Below are positions 111 to 47,107 of a DNA stretch of 64,000 bases, one piece after another. Where the stretch lies: NCBI RefSeq assembly GCF_014207375.1, contig NZ_JACHEE010000005.1:1-64000 (forward strand), in the 5' to 3' direction. The translations under genes and the position numbers were made by a program. Numbering within the stretch: the first letter of the stretch is position 1; each line of letters begins with the position of its first letter. Origin of the DNA: Arthrobacter sp. AZCC_0090 (GTDB lineage Bacteria; Actinomycetota; Actinomycetes; Actinomycetales; Micrococcaceae). The notes beneath the pieces were generated by a model, which was given only the letters and a program-made list of their open reading frames with translations, searched no databases and was not told the DNA's origin.

Positions 111-277
111 AAAGGTGAGCGAGCGTCAGGGGAAATTGCCACATAGGTGAGCGAGCGTTGGGGTTTTGGGGCATATATCTGCAGGAGCGTGCGAAGGTGG
201 GCACCCGCTCAAGTGCCGCCGTCGTCGTACGTCCGACGCTCGCTCAGATATCTCCGCCTTCCGCCCGACGCTCGCTC
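111..277. repeat. Nested inverted array of GTGAGCGAGCGTC units spaced 32 bp
   Basis: Two units reading GGTGAGCGAGCGT start at 114 and 146, 32 bp apart. Two units in the opposite orientation, CGACGCTCGCTC, start at 234 and 266, also 32 bp apart. The equal spacing means the inner and outer units could pair as one interrupted hairpin. The array lies between the IS remnant and the stop codon of the response regulator at 292. A related array lies at 33704-33859, also directly beyond the stop of a minus-strand gene. No coding potential was seen between the IS fragment and 292. The function is unknown; a REP-like dispersed element or a terminator are possibilities. Confidence 0.75.
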
Positions 278-291
278 GGATATTTGGAACG

Positions 292-963
292 TTAGAGGAG
301 GCGGCGTTCAGCGGCCCATTTGGTCAGTTCGTGACGGCTGGAGAGCTGGAGTTTGCGGAGCACCGCGGAAACATGGGTTTCCACGGTCTTGATGGAAATG
401 AACAGTTCCTTGGCCACCTCCTTGTAGCTGTAGCCACGGGCGATGAGGCGCATGACTTCCAGTTCCCTCGCGGAGAGGCGGTCCAGTTCGTCGTCGGCGA
501 TCTCCGCCGGGGAGGTCCCGAAGGCGTCCAGCACAAAACCGGCCAACCGCGGCGAGAAAACGGCGTCACCGTCGGCCACGCGGATCACGGCATCGGAGAT
601 CTCGGGGCCGGAAATGGTCTTGGTGACGTACCCGCGGGCCCCGGCCCGGATGACGGCAACGACGTCCTCGGCGGCATCGGACACGCTCAAGGCCAGGAAA
701 CTGGTGCTTCCGAGCAAGGGCACCGATGCGGTAATGACCTCCCGCCCGCCGCCGCCAATGCCACCGGGCAGATGGACGTCAAGCAGCACCACTTCCGGCC
801 GGACCTCGGCAATCACGGCAATGGCCTGCTCCACGGTTCCGGCCTCGCCCACGACGTCGATCCTGGAATCGAGATCGGCCTTGAGCCCGGAGCGGAATAT
901 GGCGTGATCGTCAACGATCACCACCCGGACCGTCCGCGGTGTTTGCTCTGGTGTGCCGCTCAT
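292..963 (-). CDS. LuxR/NarL-family response regulator
   Basis: This 223-residue protein is a DNA-binding response regulator. The N-terminal receiver domain has the acidic pair in VVIVDDHAIFRSGL, the phosphoacceptor Asp in VVLLDVHLPGG and the conserved Lys in GYVTKTIS. The C-terminal LuxR helix-turn-helix is seen from LSARELEVMRLIARGYS through SIKTVETHVSAVLRKL. The start codon overlaps the stop of the upstream sensor kinase in an ATGA, so the two are translationally coupled and form a cognate pair. The kinase carries a PspC domain and the divergent genes encode PspC proteins, which suggests control of an envelope-stress response; that role is inferred from context only. Confidence 0.93.
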   Translation of the reverse strand: MSGTPEQTPRTVRVVIVDDHAIFRSGLKADLDSRIDVVGEAGTVEQAIAVIAEVRPEVVLLDVHLPGGIGGGGREVITASVPLLGSTSFLALSVSDAAEDVVAVIRAGARGYVTKTISGPEISDAVIRVADGDAVFSPRLAGFVLDAFGTSPAEIADDELDRLSARELEVMRLIARGYSYKEVAKELFISIKTVETHVSAVLRKLQLSSRHELTKWAAERRLL

Positions 964-31910: not shown

Positions 31911-33410
31911 CTACTCCGCGGTAGGCGGTCCGAACCACGTGGTGAGCGCGTCAGCGAGGCCCACCTGGGTTTGATCTCCCGTCCAGGCCACGTATCCGTC
32001 GGGTCGAATCAGCACCGCGACGGGAGCAGCGACCTCCCCGATTGCCGGAAGCTCCCACACACCACGGTATTCGGCGTCGATCAATTGAACCCGATCTGCC
32101 CATGGGGCGATGTCGAGGCCGCCGGGCTCGCCGAGGTTGAGGAGCACCGGCCGGGCGTCGTGCAGCAGGCTGAAGACGCGCAACGGGCCGCTAGCTGTGA
32201 CCAGCTCGAGATCGGGCATGCGACGTCCCAATAGCGAGTGGCCCTCGCCGACGTCGTAATGGACGTCCAGACCGGACTGCATCGCGGCGAAGCGCTTACA
32301 GGGCTCCTCCATGCCGAGGAGCTCGGCAATAACCTCGCCCACGGCCTTCGTGCGTTCGTCCGGGCGGCGAAGCGCGGTCAGCGCCATCGTATTGCGCAGC
32401 ACGCGGGCAGCCACCGGGTGGCGCTCGGCGTGGTACGTATCAAGAAGGCTTTCCGGTGATGTCCTGTTGACCACTTGGGCAAGCTTCCATCCCAGGTTCA
32501 CCGCATCCTGTACACCGATATTGAGGCCCTGCCCTCCGTCCGGGGCGTGCACGTGGGCGGCGTCGCCGGCCAGGAGGATCCTCCTGTCGCGGTAGGCCGC
32601 AGCTTGCCGCGACATGTCGGTGAACCTGGAAATCCAGATCGGGCTGTGGACCCCGTAATCGGTCCCGCACACGGCAATGAGCGCTTCTCTGAGGTCGCGC
32701 AGGGTCGGTTCGCCCGCGTGCCCGACGTGCTCTTCGGTCACCATGACCCCTACCGGGCCACCATCCTTGTAGACCACCTGGCCGTCGCGGATCTCGTAAT
32801 CCAACTTGCCGAAGGAATGGATGCCAAAGGCATTGTGGTGGATCCCCAATTCGGGTTCCTCGGCCATCTCGACCTGGGCGATCAGGCTGCTGGTGGTCGG
32901 ATCCCAGCCGGGGAACTCGATACCGGCCGCCTTCCGGATGACACTCCGGCCTCCATCGCAACCGACGAGATACTCCACCCGTAACCGCTGGCCGGCGGAC
33001 AGCTCGACATCGACGCCGGTCTCGTCCTGAGCGAAACCGGTCACCTCGCGTCCGTAATAGATCGGTACCGCCAGCTCAGCGACCCAGCCGGCCAGGATGC
33101 GCTCGATATGGTTTTGCCACAGCCCGAGGCCGTAGTTGTGCCGCATGGGAAAGTCGCTGATGTCCAGACGCACGCCAGCGAACCCCGCGACCTGTGCTTT
33201 CTGCCCTTGCGACAGGAACCGGTCAGCGATTCCGCGCTGATCGAGGACCTCGATGGTGCGCGAGTGCAAACCGCCTGCACGTGATCCCGCGAGATCCTGG
33301 TTTGCGCGCCGCTCGACAATCGCGACGTCGACGCCCGCCAACGCCAGCTCGCCCGCCAACATCAGCCCTACTGGACCTGCTCCGACGATCAACACGGCAT
33401 GCTCGGTCAT
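31911..33410 (-). CDS. FAD-dependent aromatic hydroxylase (class A flavoprotein monooxygenase)
   Basis: The 499-residue protein has the three class A motifs: GxGxxG in LIVGAGPVGLMLAGELALAG, the DG motif in LVGCDGGRSVIRKAAGIEF, and the GD motif in RRILLAGDAAHVHAPDGGQG. The C-terminal 110 residues form the thioredoxin-like domain found in phenol 2-monooxygenase and rifampicin monooxygenase relatives. It uses NAD(P)H to hydroxylate an aromatic compound; the substrate cannot be told. It lies 17 bp after the small membrane protein gene on the same strand. Confidence 0.9.
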   Translation of the reverse strand: MTEHAVLIVGAGPVGLMLAGELALAGVDVAIVERRANQDLAGSRAGGLHSRTIEVLDQRGIADRFLSQGQKAQVAGFAGVRLDISDFPMRHNYGLGLWQNHIERILAGWVAELAVPIYYGREVTGFAQDETGVDVELSAGQRLRVEYLVGCDGGRSVIRKAAGIEFPGWDPTTSSLIAQVEMAEEPELGIHHNAFGIHSFGKLDYEIRDGQVVYKDGGPVGVMVTEEHVGHAGEPTLRDLREALIAVCGTDYGVHSPIWISRFTDMSRQAAAYRDRRILLAGDAAHVHAPDGGQGLNIGVQDAVNLGWKLAQVVNRTSPESLLDTYHAERHPVAARVLRNTMALTALRRPDERTKAVGEVIAELLGMEEPCKRFAAMQSGLDVHYDVGEGHSLLGRRMPDLELVTASGPLRVFSLLHDARPVLLNLGEPGGLDIAPWADRVQLIDAEYRGVWELPAIGEVAAPVAVLIRPDGYVAWTGDQTQVGLADALTTWFGPPTAE

Positions 33411-33427
33411 AGCTACACTCCGGTCGG

Positions 33428-33676
33428 TTACTTCTTCAAGCCCTTGCGGATCTGCTGCTTCAAGCCCTTGCGGATCTGCTGCCCGCGGACCACCATGCCC
33501 ACGACATGCAGGACCAGGCCGAGCCCGATCACAGCCAGCGAGGCTAGCGCAAGGCCTTGATTATGTGAGGTGTTGCCGACAATCGTGAGGATGATCCCGA
33601 CGGCGATAAGCCCCATCGCGCTGAAAACCAGCGTCTTGTAGGTGGTGGAAGCAGTTGCCCAGAATTCGTTCAGCAC
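33428..33676 (-). CDS. Small membrane protein with duplicated basic tail
   Basis: The 82-residue protein starts at GTG 33676 and has two predicted helices (about 15-35 and 42-63). It ends in a tandem peptide repeat, QQIRKGLK QQIRKGLK K, encoded by a perfect 24-bp duplication. It is upstream of the FAD monooxygenase by 17 bp and probably cotranscribed. No family was recognised; the two-helix build resembles generic integral membrane proteins of Micrococcaceae. Confidence 0.75.
   Translation of the reverse strand: MLNEFWATASTTYKTLVFSAMGLIAVGIILTIVGNTSHNQGLALASLAVIGLGLVLHVVGMVVRGQQIRKGLKQQIRKGLKK
33434..33481. repeat. Perfect 24-bp tandem duplication inside a small membrane protein gene
   Basis: Two identical 24-bp units occupy 33434-33457 and 33458-33481. 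They add eight residues (QQIRKGLK) in frame. The lack of any difference between the copies points to a recent slippage event. Confidence 0.9.
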
Positions 33677-33703
33677 GACCCAAGTTTAGGCCACGTGCCG
33701 ACC

Positions 33704-33859
33704 CTCGCTCACATATCAACGGTTATGGGCGAACGCACGCTCACATATCAACGGCTATAGGCGAACGCTAGCTCACATCATCTGCGCGGGCGTTTCGGGA
33801 ATTGCCGTCATAAGTGAGCGAGCGTCGTGAAAAAGCCGGAAATAAGTGAGCGAGCGTCG
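33704..33859. repeat. Second inverted array of 32-bp-spaced GTGAGCGAGCG-type units
   Basis: Three units in CGCTCAC orientation begin at about 33706, 33738 and 33770, each 32 bp apart; the first two share the long string CGCTCACATATCAACGG. Two units in the other orientation, ATAAGTGAGCGAGCGTCG, lie at 33810-33827 and 33842-33859, again 32 bp apart. The array fills the gap between the small membrane protein start (33676) and the stop of the CitE-like gene (33871). It matches the array at 111-277 in unit sequence, spacing and position next to a minus-strand stop codon. Confidence 0.8.
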
Positions 33860-33870
33860 GTGGATGCTCT

Positions 33871-34734
33871 TTACAGGGAGGGCTGGACCCCGAAAGCCAC
33901 GGCGAGCTTCATGATCTTCTCGGCGCGGCCCAGTCGCGGAAGGTCGGAGCCGTCGCGGATGACCCTGCCGTTGGCTTCGAAGTCGTTCATGAAGTCGGTG
34001 GCCCAGGCGACATCCGACGGCGTGGGGCTGATGACCTCGTTGATGACCGTGGTCTGGTCGATGGCCAGGCAGAGCTTGCCGGTCATGCCCATGGTCACCG
34101 TGATCCCGGTCTGCTCGCGCAGGATCGGGTGGTTGGTACCGACGGTAGGGCCGTCGATGGGACCCGGGAGGTTGCCCACGCGGCTGGCGACAACCAGCTT
34201 GGCCCGGGGGTAGGCCATCGCCTCGGGCGTGGCGGCCATGCCGGTGTCCCGGCGGAAGTCGCCCGAACCGAAGGCCAGGCGGAAGGCACCCTGGGCGCGG
34301 GCAATGTGGTTGGCTTCCTCGATGCCGAGGGCCGACTCCACGAGGGCCACAACAGGAGTCTTGCCATCCATGCGGTGGAAGGACTCGGTGACCTGGTCCG
34401 CGGACTCGGTCTTGGCCAGCATGACGCCCAAGAGACCGGGCGTGCCGCGGAGACCGGCGAGGTCATCGGCCCAGAACGGGCTCGTGGCGTCGTTGATGCG
34501 AACCCAGGCCTGGCCGCCAGCGGTCAGCCAGTTGATGACGTTGTCGCGGGCAATGTCCTTCTGGGACGGGTCCACCGCGTCTTCGATGTCAAGGATGATG
34601 GCGTCCGCGCGCGATGAGGCCGACTGGTCGAAAAGCTCCGTCTTCATGGCATTCACGAGGAGCCAGGAGCGGGCAATGTCTGCGGGAATGTTGCGGGTGG
34701 ACCGAATGGATTCGGCGGCGGTGCTAGACGTCAT
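33871..34734 (-). CDS. CitE-like aldolase/lyase (HpcH/HpaI family)
   Basis: The 287-residue protein belongs to the HpcH/HpaI aldolase and citrate-lyase beta-subunit-like family. Motifs are DAIILDIEDAVDPSQKDIAR with the metal-binding acids, VRINDATSPFWADDLAGL, PVVALVESALGIEEANHIA with the second metal ligand Glu, and LAFGSGDFRRDTG. It probably cleaves or forms a CoA or malyl-type thioester. No citrate lyase alpha or gamma subunits are nearby, so it is not part of a classical complex. The specific substrate is unknown. Confidence 0.88.
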   Translation of the reverse strand: MTSSTAAESIRSTRNIPADIARSWLLVNAMKTELFDQSASSRADAIILDIEDAVDPSQKDIARDNVINWLTAGGQAWVRINDATSPFWADDLAGLRGTPGLLGVMLAKTESADQVTESFHRMDGKTPVVALVESALGIEEANHIARAQGAFRLAFGSGDFRRDTGMAATPEAMAYPRAKLVVASRVGNLPGPIDGPTVGTNHPILREQTGITVTMGMTGKLCLAIDQTTVINEVISPTPSDVAWATDFMNDFEANGRVIRDGSDLPRLGRAEKIMKLAVAFGVQPSL

Positions 34735-34830: not shown

Positions 34831-34896
34831 CCCAACTAGCTCGCAGTTGTTGTCGTTATGCGCCGCGAAAACGACAACAACTGCGAGTCAGTTGGG
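34831..34896. repeat. Palindromic repeat, copy 1
   Basis: Arms of 27 bp (34831-34857 and 34870-34896) pair with two mismatches around a 12-nt loop; the core is CTCGCAGTTGTTGTCGTT and its complement. Copy 2 lies at 39023-39088. Similarity extends about 25 bp past the right arm (TTTGGCGCACTTTGGGGAGC against TTTAACGCGCTTTAGGGGAGC). Copy 1 lies in the divergent gap between the CitE-like gene and the sulfur operon, so it is not in a normal terminator position. It behaves as a dispersed palindromic element. Confidence 0.85.
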
Positions 34897-39022: not shown

Positions 39023-39088
39023 CCCAACTGACTCGCAGTTGTTGTCGTTTACAGGGCTCAAAACGACACCTACTGCGAGTCAGTTGGG
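39023..39088. repeat. Palindromic repeat, copy 2
   Basis: Arms of 28 bp (39023-39050 and 39061-39088) pair with about three mismatches around a 10-nt loop. It is the same element as at 34831-34896. Here it lies between convergent genes, 9 bp after the dioxygenase stop and 11 bp before the aldo/keto reductase stop, where it may also serve as a bidirectional terminator. Confidence 0.85.
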
Positions 39089-44721: not shown

Positions 44722-44838
44722 GTTCCCGATTTCCCCAGACGTCGTAGCGGCAGCGTCCCGGGCACCTGCCGAGGGACTAGCCCTACCAACATATCCCGGC
44801 CTGGCCGCCGGCCGGGCGGGGCCGGGTGTGGTCATGGC

Positions 44839-44909
44839 GGGCGCGGTCAGGCGCCGTTACGCCGGGCGCGGTCAGGGCGCCGTTACGCCGGGCGCGGTCA
44901 GGGCGCCGT
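44839..44909. repeat. Tandem 25/26-bp GC-rich repeat across the end of the NAD(P)-binding protein gene
   Basis: Units beginning GGGCGCGGTCAG lie at 44839, 44864 and 44890. The first has 25 bp, the second 26 bp and the third is partial. The last unit includes the stop codon (44898-44900) and final codons of the minus-strand gene, so the repeat may have arisen by duplication of the 3' end of that gene. Confidence 0.8.
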
Positions 44910-46067: not shown

Positions 46068-47021
46068 ATGTATCAACAGGAGTACGGACACAGGATCGGC
46101 GGGGACAGGATCTTCGCCTTGATATCCCGGGTGGTGAAAACCATCACCAGGTACAAGGCATCAATAGCTACCTGGGCAATTGTGGCGGCGGTCGTCCTGG
46201 CGGCCGTGATGACGCAAAACTACGCACAGGTACTGACACCAGCAGGCACGAGCGCCATAGTCGCCCCGAGCATCGGCTCGGGAGCAGTGATTGCAGCCCC
46301 TTCACCGGCCGCAGCCAATCCGACGCCGGCCGCGAGTCCTGCCCCGGCCACCACGCCACCTCTGGCACGGGCGACGGCCGCGGCGCCGGCAGCTCCGGTG
46401 CCGGCCGCAGTGGCAGCCCCTCCTGCGCCTGCGCCTGCGCCTGCTCCTGCGCCTGCGCCTGCGCCTGACACAAACTCGTACACAGTCGCCAGCGGCGACA
46501 CTGTAGGCTCGATAGCCGCCAGGTTCGGAGTCGACGTCAACGCGATGCTGGCGGCCGATGGACTCAGCGCCTATTCCATCATCGTGCCGGGCGAGGTGTT
46601 GAAGCTCACAGGACCGCCGGTTGCCGTCACCGCACCCGCTCCTGCTCCGGCCCCCGCAGCCGTGCCCGCTCCAGCCCCTGCGCCCGCACCTGCGGTCCGG
46701 ACCATCTACGTCGCAGGTTCAGGCGGGCAAGCCGCAGTGGACAGTTGCATTGGCCCCATCCACTTCACTCCGACCGACGCATACTCGTTGTTTATCACCG
46801 AGCATGATTTCTGCGGAGGGTGGGCACGCTTCTCGGGTATTGGCGTCGGCGAGACGGTGAGCATCCCCGGTTACGGCACGTACACGGTGACGGGACGCGG
46901 ACAGGTGCCCCAAGGTGGGACCACCAACAACGTCGCTGCCGTATTCGGCGGCTTTCCGCGGGCGGTACTGCAGACGTGCATCCCGGGCACCAACCAGATG
47001 CTGGTGATCGCACTCAACTAG
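46068..47021 (+). CDS. LysM protein with sortase-like C-terminal domain
   Basis: The 317-residue protein has one membrane helix near the N-terminus (about 32-50), Pro/Ala-rich linkers, a LysM domain (about 136-181: SYTVASGDTVGSIAARFGV through VPGEVLKL) and a C-terminal domain (212-317). The C-terminal domain has a sortase-like pattern: His246 in FITEHDFCGG, VGETVSIPGYGTYTV and Cys304 in AVLQTCIPGTNQM. The Arg that normally follows about eight residues after the sortase Cys is replaced (NQMLVIAL). The domain may bind or modify cell wall; enzymatic activity is uncertain. It stands alone, followed by a hairpin repeat array. Confidence 0.78.
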   Translation: MYQQEYGHRIGGDRIFALISRVVKTITRYKASIATWAIVAAVVLAAVMTQNYAQVLTPAGTSAIVAPSIGSGAVIAAPSPAAANPTPAASPAPATTPPLARATAAAPAAPVPAAVAAPPAPAPAPAPAPAPAPDTNSYTVASGDTVGSIAARFGVDVNAMLAADGLSAYSIIVPGEVLKLTGPPVAVTAPAPAPAPAAVPAPAPAPAPAVRTIYVAGSGGQAAVDSCIGPIHFTPTDAYSLFITEHDFCGGWARFSGIGVGETVSIPGYGTYTVTGRGQVPQGGTTNNVAAVFGGFPRAVLQTCIPGTNQMLVIALN

Positions 47022-47024
47022 TGG

Positions 47025-47107
47025 CAGGCCCCACGGTGGGGCTGTCGGCAGGCCCCGCGGTGGGGCTGTCGGCGGGCCCCGCGGTGGGGCTGTCGGCGGG
47101 CCCCGTC
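47025..47107. repeat. Tandem 24-bp hairpin repeats after the LysM gene
   Basis: Three 24-bp units (47025-47048, 47049-47072, 47073-47096) and a partial fourth begin GGCAGG or GGCGGG. Each contains the palindrome CCCCRCGGTGGGG, so each can form its own hairpin. The array starts 3 bp after the stop codon. It may act as a terminator or RNA-stabilising element. Confidence 0.85.

Follow-up and report, generated by a model that had tools for sequence, protein, structure and literature searches.

What kind of element are the short, evenly spaced repeats found just past two gene ends in this window, by which we mean the whole 64,000-nucleotide stretch of Arthrobacter sp. AZCC_0090 DNA analysed here (the start of contig C5 in a home genome of 4.92 Mb in 34 contigs)? 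The first-pass annotation, made from the letters alone, had described a second array of three CGCTCAC and two GTGAGCG units with a 32-bp period, and the core scan places these units at 33700-33858, where a 17-nt core, GACGCTCGCTCACNTAT, occurs three times in forward and twice in reverse orientation, with same-strand copies 32 bp apart (array 2, Table 1). The opposite order of units that it had noticed in the two arrays is borne out, as array 1 has two minus-strand cores followed by two plus-strand cores. Both arrays do lie past the stop codon of a minus-strand gene, though at 12 bp for array 2 and 8 bp for array 1 rather than at the 11-14 bp proposed. At array 2 the neighbours on both sides, an HpcH/HpaI-family gene and a DUF3188 gene, are on the minus strand. 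Within the window alone the signal is marginal, as a 10-mer scan gave 6 matches against a shuffle mean of 2.71 and 5 of 100 shuffles gave at least as many.

Table 1. Cores of the two arrays and the genes beside them, in window coordinates.
Feature	Position	Strand	Remarks
Array 1 core	111..127	-	core scan
Array 1 core	143..159	-	core scan
Array 1 core	235..251	+	core scan
Array 1 core	267..283	+	8 bp from response-regulator stop codon
LuxR-type response regulator gene	292..924	-	orthologous anchor (RR site)
DUF3188 small protein gene	33428..33676	-	PF11384; start 23 bases past array 2
Array 2 core unit 1	33700..33716	+	GACCCTCGCTCACATAT, 1 mismatch to GACGCTCGCTCACNTAT
Array 2 core unit 2	33732..33748	+	2 mismatches; 32 bp past unit 1
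Array 2 core unit 3	33764..33780	+	degenerate, 4 mismatches; 32 bp past unit 2
Array 2 centre between forward and reverse arms	33781..33809		arms 46 bp start to start (14 + 32)
Array 2 core unit 4	33810..33826	-	perfect
Array 2 core unit 5	33842..33858	-	perfect; 32 bp from unit 4, 12 bp from stop codon of the upstream gene
HpcH/HpaI aldolase / citrate lyase family gene	33871..34734	-	PF03328; array 2 at its 3' end

The window holds other repeats as well. Contig C8 (L013) opens with the same 95 bases as the window, which means that C5 starts inside a repeat and that array 1 is close to an assembly break; many relatives have a convergent, aminotransferase-like gene end at the array 1 site, and this side lacks it. 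Tandem Repeats Finder reports other short tandem repeats at 46420-46467, 44838-44909 and 47023-47105 (CCTGCG hexamers, 26-bp and 24-bp units). A second family of gene-end hairpins, CCCAACTGACTCGCAGTTGTTGTCGTT, with a stem of about 28 bp, occurs at 34831-34896 and 39023-39088, and its arms are 28 bp apart in the pairs inspected among the matches listed. Its 16-mer CGCAGTTGTTGTCGTT, at up to one mismatch, is found 59 times in the home genome, 83-148 times in four relatives and 0-11 times in eight other genomes.

Outside the window the core proves to be abundant. At up to two mismatches GACGCTCGCTCACNTAT has 204 matches in the home genome, compared with 4 for a reversed control pattern, and the 100 of these matches that were listed occupy 53 places, a lower bound for the genome. 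An initial sample of 59 genomes, the home genome among them, yielded a core match at up to one mismatch in 11, and two besides the home genome have more than 100. A loose tandem pattern (GCTCNCTCAC, 21 to 23 nt, GCTCNCTCAC) finds at least one match in 145 of 198 same-genus genomes, again with the home genome included, and the reversed control finds none. The annotation had allowed that the two arrays might be the only ones, with no counterpart in relatives, and this does not hold; of its proposal of a mobile or functional repeat family, the family is genuine and function is better supported than mobility. A sample of 149 genomes across the bacterial family to which the genus belongs gave seven with tandem cores, namely six of the eight from the same genus and one of 141 from 31 other genera. 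That one, G341, has 41 matches in a spelling of its own, GCTCGCTCACTCCACGTCGTGTTT (loci L266-L277), and six other sampled members of its genus have no tandem cores. The array family is thus almost confined to Arthrobacter in the sampled genomes.

Among the records listed by searches of the open-licence PubMed Central literature, none describes these arrays. A RepRanger table of REP counts, in the accessible part of that source (PMC12306157), includes Arthrobacter livingstonensis, and a REP-counting tool may have tallied such hairpins without describing them. The accessible text of a Renibacterium VNTR paper contains no unit matching the array cores, and Rfam gave no match for window 33000-34500 (E<=1) or for ten loci (at the gathering cut-off).

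The core is not spelled alike in all genomes. Other spellings exist, so a genome that scores zero with the loose tandem pattern can still carry arrays. Indeed, the pattern TCAC-(21 to 23)-GCNCNMTCAC has matches in 14 of 14 genomes, 13 of which score zero with the loose pattern. Among the matches listed, six genomes (G001, G003, G009, G011, G017 and G026) have clear dialects such as ACGCCCGCTCAC or ACGCCCCATCAC; four others (G005, G014, G029 and G060) have only 3-6 matches to the TCAC pattern, compared with 1-2 in the control. A single-hairpin form with a conserved 23-nt arm, GCNCNATCACTTNTGGTCCCTAA, has 27 matches in G029, 28 in G006, 37 in G060, 4 in G014 and none in G005, and its arm starts are 32 bp apart in nearly all pairs among the matches listed. 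At the response-regulator site of G014 (L219), where relatives have core arrays, we found a different tandem gene-end repeat, CCCGGACATGCCCATTCTTAAGC, with a spacing of about 33 bp, which is possibly another dialect and possibly unrelated.

For the counts of spacing, spacers, gene-end placement and T-runs we used a clade-A set of the window, at least 115 scan loci and, in some counts, 30 home-genome loci; 80 of 115 scan loci are named (63 from Arthrobacter and 17 from other organisms, the latter chance single hits, left out only in the count of exact cores inside genes) and 35 are without a name. Among the matches listed, 307 of 351 same-strand neighbour pairs in clade A are at 32 bp, with 12 at 64, 7 at 31 and 5 at 33, and the same-strand spacing in G195, G203 and G341 is like that of clade A. 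The period corresponds to three helical turns. The two arms are also in register in clade-A loci, where the 53 forward-to-reverse spacings include 30 that equal 14+32k and 40 that come within 1 bp of it; since just 3 of the 12 such spacings seen in G195, G203 and G341 fit within 1 bp, the register is evident only for the home clade. Of the 339 non-redundant spacers between cores, 300 have a length of exactly 21 nt. Their sequences agree at 8.7 of 21 positions between arrays and at 16.6 for neighbours within one arm, whereas left- and right-arm spacers agree at 10.3, against 9.5 in shuffles (null maximum 10.4). The identities and the fixed length together indicate that core and spacing are kept, that neighbours come from local duplication and that spacer sequence is largely free. 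Linkers between two cores have a T-rich centre at unit positions 22-24 with G/C on its flanks, which is absent upstream of first cores, and the home clade adds an A/T tract at 12-14. We rejected a mini-hairpin in each spacer: the consensus looks palindromic, but complementarity is in no clear excess (over all pairs of positions 4 or more apart, z reaches no more than 1.4 in clade A and 2.9 in other loci), and no position pair inside the spacers is a clear case of covariation.

The arrays lie at gene ends. With an in-house codon-model gene caller trained on these loci, only 2 of 190 array clusters fall inside predicted genes. Convergent genes flank 70 clusters, tandem genes 69 and divergent genes 19, and in 30 a flanking gene call is missing. 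In an earlier, smaller count, from which 40 further clusters were dropped at edges or for want of a flank, 32 of 68 classified clusters were convergent, whereas the gene pairs of that DNA were so in 147 of 846 cases, and the array edges lay near stop codons and farther from starts. Orientation is biased as well. Between tandem genes, 24 of the one-direction arrays read in the sense of the upstream gene and 6 against it; among mixed arrays the sense cores come first in 33 and the antisense cores in 6. Exact 12-nt cores fall inside genes in 8 of 304 cases, counted in 95 loci that are 87% gene and that were chosen for holding a core.

The annotation had proposed looking for the arrays at orthologous sites, and there they persist. 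We used two anchors, both picked for the array that the home genome carries at them: the 3' side of the array 1 response regulator (the RR site) and that of PEP carboxylase (the ppc site). At the RR site the home genome and 28 of the 30 relatives selected carry a core variant, which makes 29 of 31 genomes, and a recognised core is present at the ppc site in 23 of 30, where one gene end (G026) was not located in the inspection by eye. The remaining ppc sites show degenerate units by eye (G008, G025 and G034), an unrelated hairpin instead of the core (G005), or a short gap with no hairpin by eye (G009, G014 and G017); some gain or loss of arrays does occur. Array 2 is itself retained in the sister species Arthrobacter sp. 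MI7-26, the nearest named match around it (88-91% identical), with related spacers and a changed copy number: two cores face forward there, against three in the home genome, and a further block adds two reverse cores. In other genera a close homologue of the regulator was found in 20 of 30 genomes, and none of the 18 readable loci among these has a core variant at the RR site, some having ordinary hairpins.

The arrays keep these places across dialects, and the two sites tend to share one. Of 23 genomes with both arrays, 17 share a dialect between RR and ppc (shuffle mean 4.9, maximum 12 in 5000) and 15 share the commonest dialect (shuffle mean 3.8, maximum 11), a concordance that partly reflects shared ancestry, because clades share dialects and the rows are not independent. 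How the core is spelled depends more on the genome than on which site it occupies.

Array 2 folds as a long interrupted hairpin on both strands (z of -5.8 and -5.5), and array 1, folded on one strand, gives a z of -4.9. At the RR site the arms covary. Once G005 and G014, whose hairpins are unrelated, are set aside, a 13-bp arm pair with 9 or more pairs is obtained from 23 of 28 genomes, and among the 14 distinct arm pairs 179 of 182 cells pair, with double changes at 7 of 13 positions, whereas arm shuffles reach at most 168; because the arms taken were the candidates that paired best, pairing is favoured in a way that shuffling leaves in place. Including G005 and G014 gives 25 of 30 rows, 201 of 208 cells and 9 of 13 positions. 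A single unbroken RNA hairpin as the object of selection was rejected, since spacers barely match across the arms, so that it is mainly the cores and the centre that pair; many arrays have one orientation only, and there no central hairpin is possible. Some RR-site hairpins are flanked by A-runs and T-runs, as in bidirectional terminators. A uniform U-tract terminator is not supported, as the T-run downstream of clade-A units is inconsistent and a terminator scan scored none at array 2.

Many arrays follow genes in most of the sampled Arthrobacter genomes, and they are spelled by lineage; they are therefore probably a working gene-end element and not a stray repeat. The reading we prefer, which in our judgement has about an even chance of being right, is that they are REP/BIME-like gene-end elements that stop or insulate transcription, with phased cores read by a putative co-evolving factor. 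Under this model, a core of 12-17 nt repeated every three helical turns, often in both arms of an inverted repeat just past stop codons, would most likely act at transcript 3' ends, ending or insulating transcription and doing so from both sides where genes converge. The central hairpin would act in the RNA, while a putative factor would bind the phased cores at the DNA level, its drifting sequence preference yielding the genome-wide dialects. Action on transcript ends is suggested by the hairpin covariation, the gene-end position and the sense bias; a core-binding factor is suggested by the fixed three-turn spacing, the free linkers and the many one-direction arrays, for which an RNA hairpin by itself would hardly account. 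It is these two sets of signs together that lead us to prefer a stop or insulator with a co-evolving factor over mobility, chromosome organisation, slippage or uptake. Several observations count against it: array 2 has no scored terminator, the T-run is inconsistent, many arrays have one orientation and left and right spacers match near chance; array 1 is antisense-first, and the DUF3188 gene begins so soon after array 2 (23 bases) that little room is left for a promoter.

A more specific form of the model, which we offer tentatively and think on the unlikely side, is that a sequence-specific protein sits on one face of the helix, on head-to-tail cores three turns apart behind selected genes, as a polar barrier to RNA polymerase, and that its specificity has drifted repeatedly. 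If so, it would be a bacterial analogue of tandem terminator-box arrays, and the drift would have rewritten dozens of sites per genome in concert, many of them staying in place. The array family is in any event an uncommon natural record of how a sequence of regulatory appearance has changed in concert, genome by genome, while staying at both gene ends tested across the genus. It offers a route to the putative factor and accounts for recurrent intergenic DNA in a common soil genus.

The arrays could instead be a mobile, non-autonomous REP-like element spread by a putative enzyme, with any function secondary. Dispersal, high copy number and lineage-specific spelling would fit such an element, as would the seven of 30 genomes without a recognised ppc core (three of them, G009, G014 and G017, with the gap empty of a hairpin) and the single-hairpin sub-family GCNCNATCACTTNTGGTCCCTAA, whose conserved 23-nt arm recurs in G029, G006 and G060. 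The annotation had pointed to a RAYT-like transposase, but a search for Y1_Tnp (PF01797) found it in 2 of 198 same-genus genomes (1 over the cut-off), the home genome not among them, whereas the same search matched 5 of 14 control genomes; a RAYT/Y1 enzyme as mobiliser was therefore rejected, the family being missing from 196 of 198. An origin in phages or plasmids finds no support. The four-unit array has no match to plasmids or phages at E<=0.01 and the exact core none to viral contigs; the weak matches of array 2 are mostly in flanking genes, and in one, at E about 1, a 1.0-Mb Arthrobacter plasmid matches its reverse cores. Moreover, spacers are not copied between loci, as a copy-and-paste element would copy them, and the arrays hold two orthologous sites while dialects change. 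With these points set against it, we regard mobility as unlikely. Insertion-sequence-like ends, TGAACTGGTCCCCG..., directly follow the core at the RR site of G016 (L215) and at L049 near 1400; insertion sequences thus seem to insert into the arrays, as some do into REPs.

Phased sites for organising the chromosome or relieving supercoils, as BIME-2 elements do for gyrase, would account for the three-turn period, the free spacers, the T-rich linker centre with its G/C flanks and the gene-end and convergent placement without any stop to transcription. The sense bias to the upstream gene in tandem contexts argues against this, and a general enzyme such as gyrase would by itself leave a changing 10-12-nt dialect unexplained, so that we find this reading quite unlikely. 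That the arrays are simple minisatellites, expanded by slippage on intrinsic terminators of the ordinary kind, is very doubtful: arm neighbours resemble one another far more than spacers of different arrays do and copy number differs in the sister species, but slippage cannot give one core at 53 or more places, fixed 21-nt unrelated linkers and concordant dialects. Least credible, to the point of being nearly discounted, is a DNA-uptake signal of a transformable Gram-positive homogenised by uptake drive, which by analogy with the accessible accounts of such signals (PMC1626085, PMC3630211) would suit the dialects, A/T tracts, inverted gene-end pairs and a core kept without copying of its flanks, since the density of about 0.04/kb (204 in 4.92 Mb) compares with about 1/kb for USS/DUS and exact cores are rare in genes, where DUS are common.

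The known systems that come closest each share part of this pattern. Intrinsic bidirectional terminators likewise place a hairpin with covarying arms at gene ends; unlike them, the Arthrobacter arrays have a core repeated genome-wide, tandem half-sites and no consistent U-tract. CRISPR arrays have unrelated spacers within one array, whereas arm neighbours here are largely identical. The Sal boxes bound by TTF-I are tandem roadblock terminator arrays downstream of eukaryotic rRNA genes, and they resemble our arrays, by analogy only, in being tandem short protein sites that follow a gene and depend on orientation; we know of no bacterial counterpart or factor of this kind.

The CGTC REPs, as described in the accessible text of PMC3733652, which does not contain the word Actinobacteria, have stems of 8-9 bp, loops of 4-5 nt, rare clusters and negligible head-to-tail dimers. 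The Arthrobacter core likewise ends in CGTC on its reverse strand, forms inverted dimers between unidirectional and convergent genes and has no dedicated transposase. The arrays differ in their 13-bp arm and frequent head-to-tail arrangement, and in place of the compact stem-loop with terminal CGTC and CCA tail they have a variable central loop and tandem units without a stem. In evolutionary behaviour the nearest parallel, by analogy, is the dialects of DUS/USS, which in the accessible text (PMC1626085, PMC3630211) also follow lineages, form inverted pairs at gene ends and join a core to A/T tracts. Those signals are dense and also intragenic; the arrays are about 25-fold rarer, almost never inside genes (8 of 304 cores) and tandem at 32 bp.

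Closest overall are the REP/BIME repeats (GTAG, RAYT), of which the accessible text of PMC2817692 and PMC3733652 describes more than 100 short intergenic copies per genome, in inverted pairs and clusters, species-specific and commonly placed at gene ends and between convergent genes; gyrase binding by E. coli BIME-2 arrays and assistance of REPs in Rho-dependent termination are also reported there (PMC2817692). The Arthrobacter arrays are extragenic, high in copy and arranged in inverted clusters in the same way. They differ in that the unit, in place of a 20-40-nt palindrome with a GTAG tag, is a half-palindrome that pairs with the opposite arm, in their direct repeats at a fixed 32 bp, and in the lack of a RAYT in 196 of 198 genomes. 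The family thus resembles REP/BIME gene-end repeats and departs from them on two defining points, the RAYT and the self-palindromic tagged unit, and it suggests that gene-end repeats which are REP-like and form dialects can occur where RAYT transposases are lacking.
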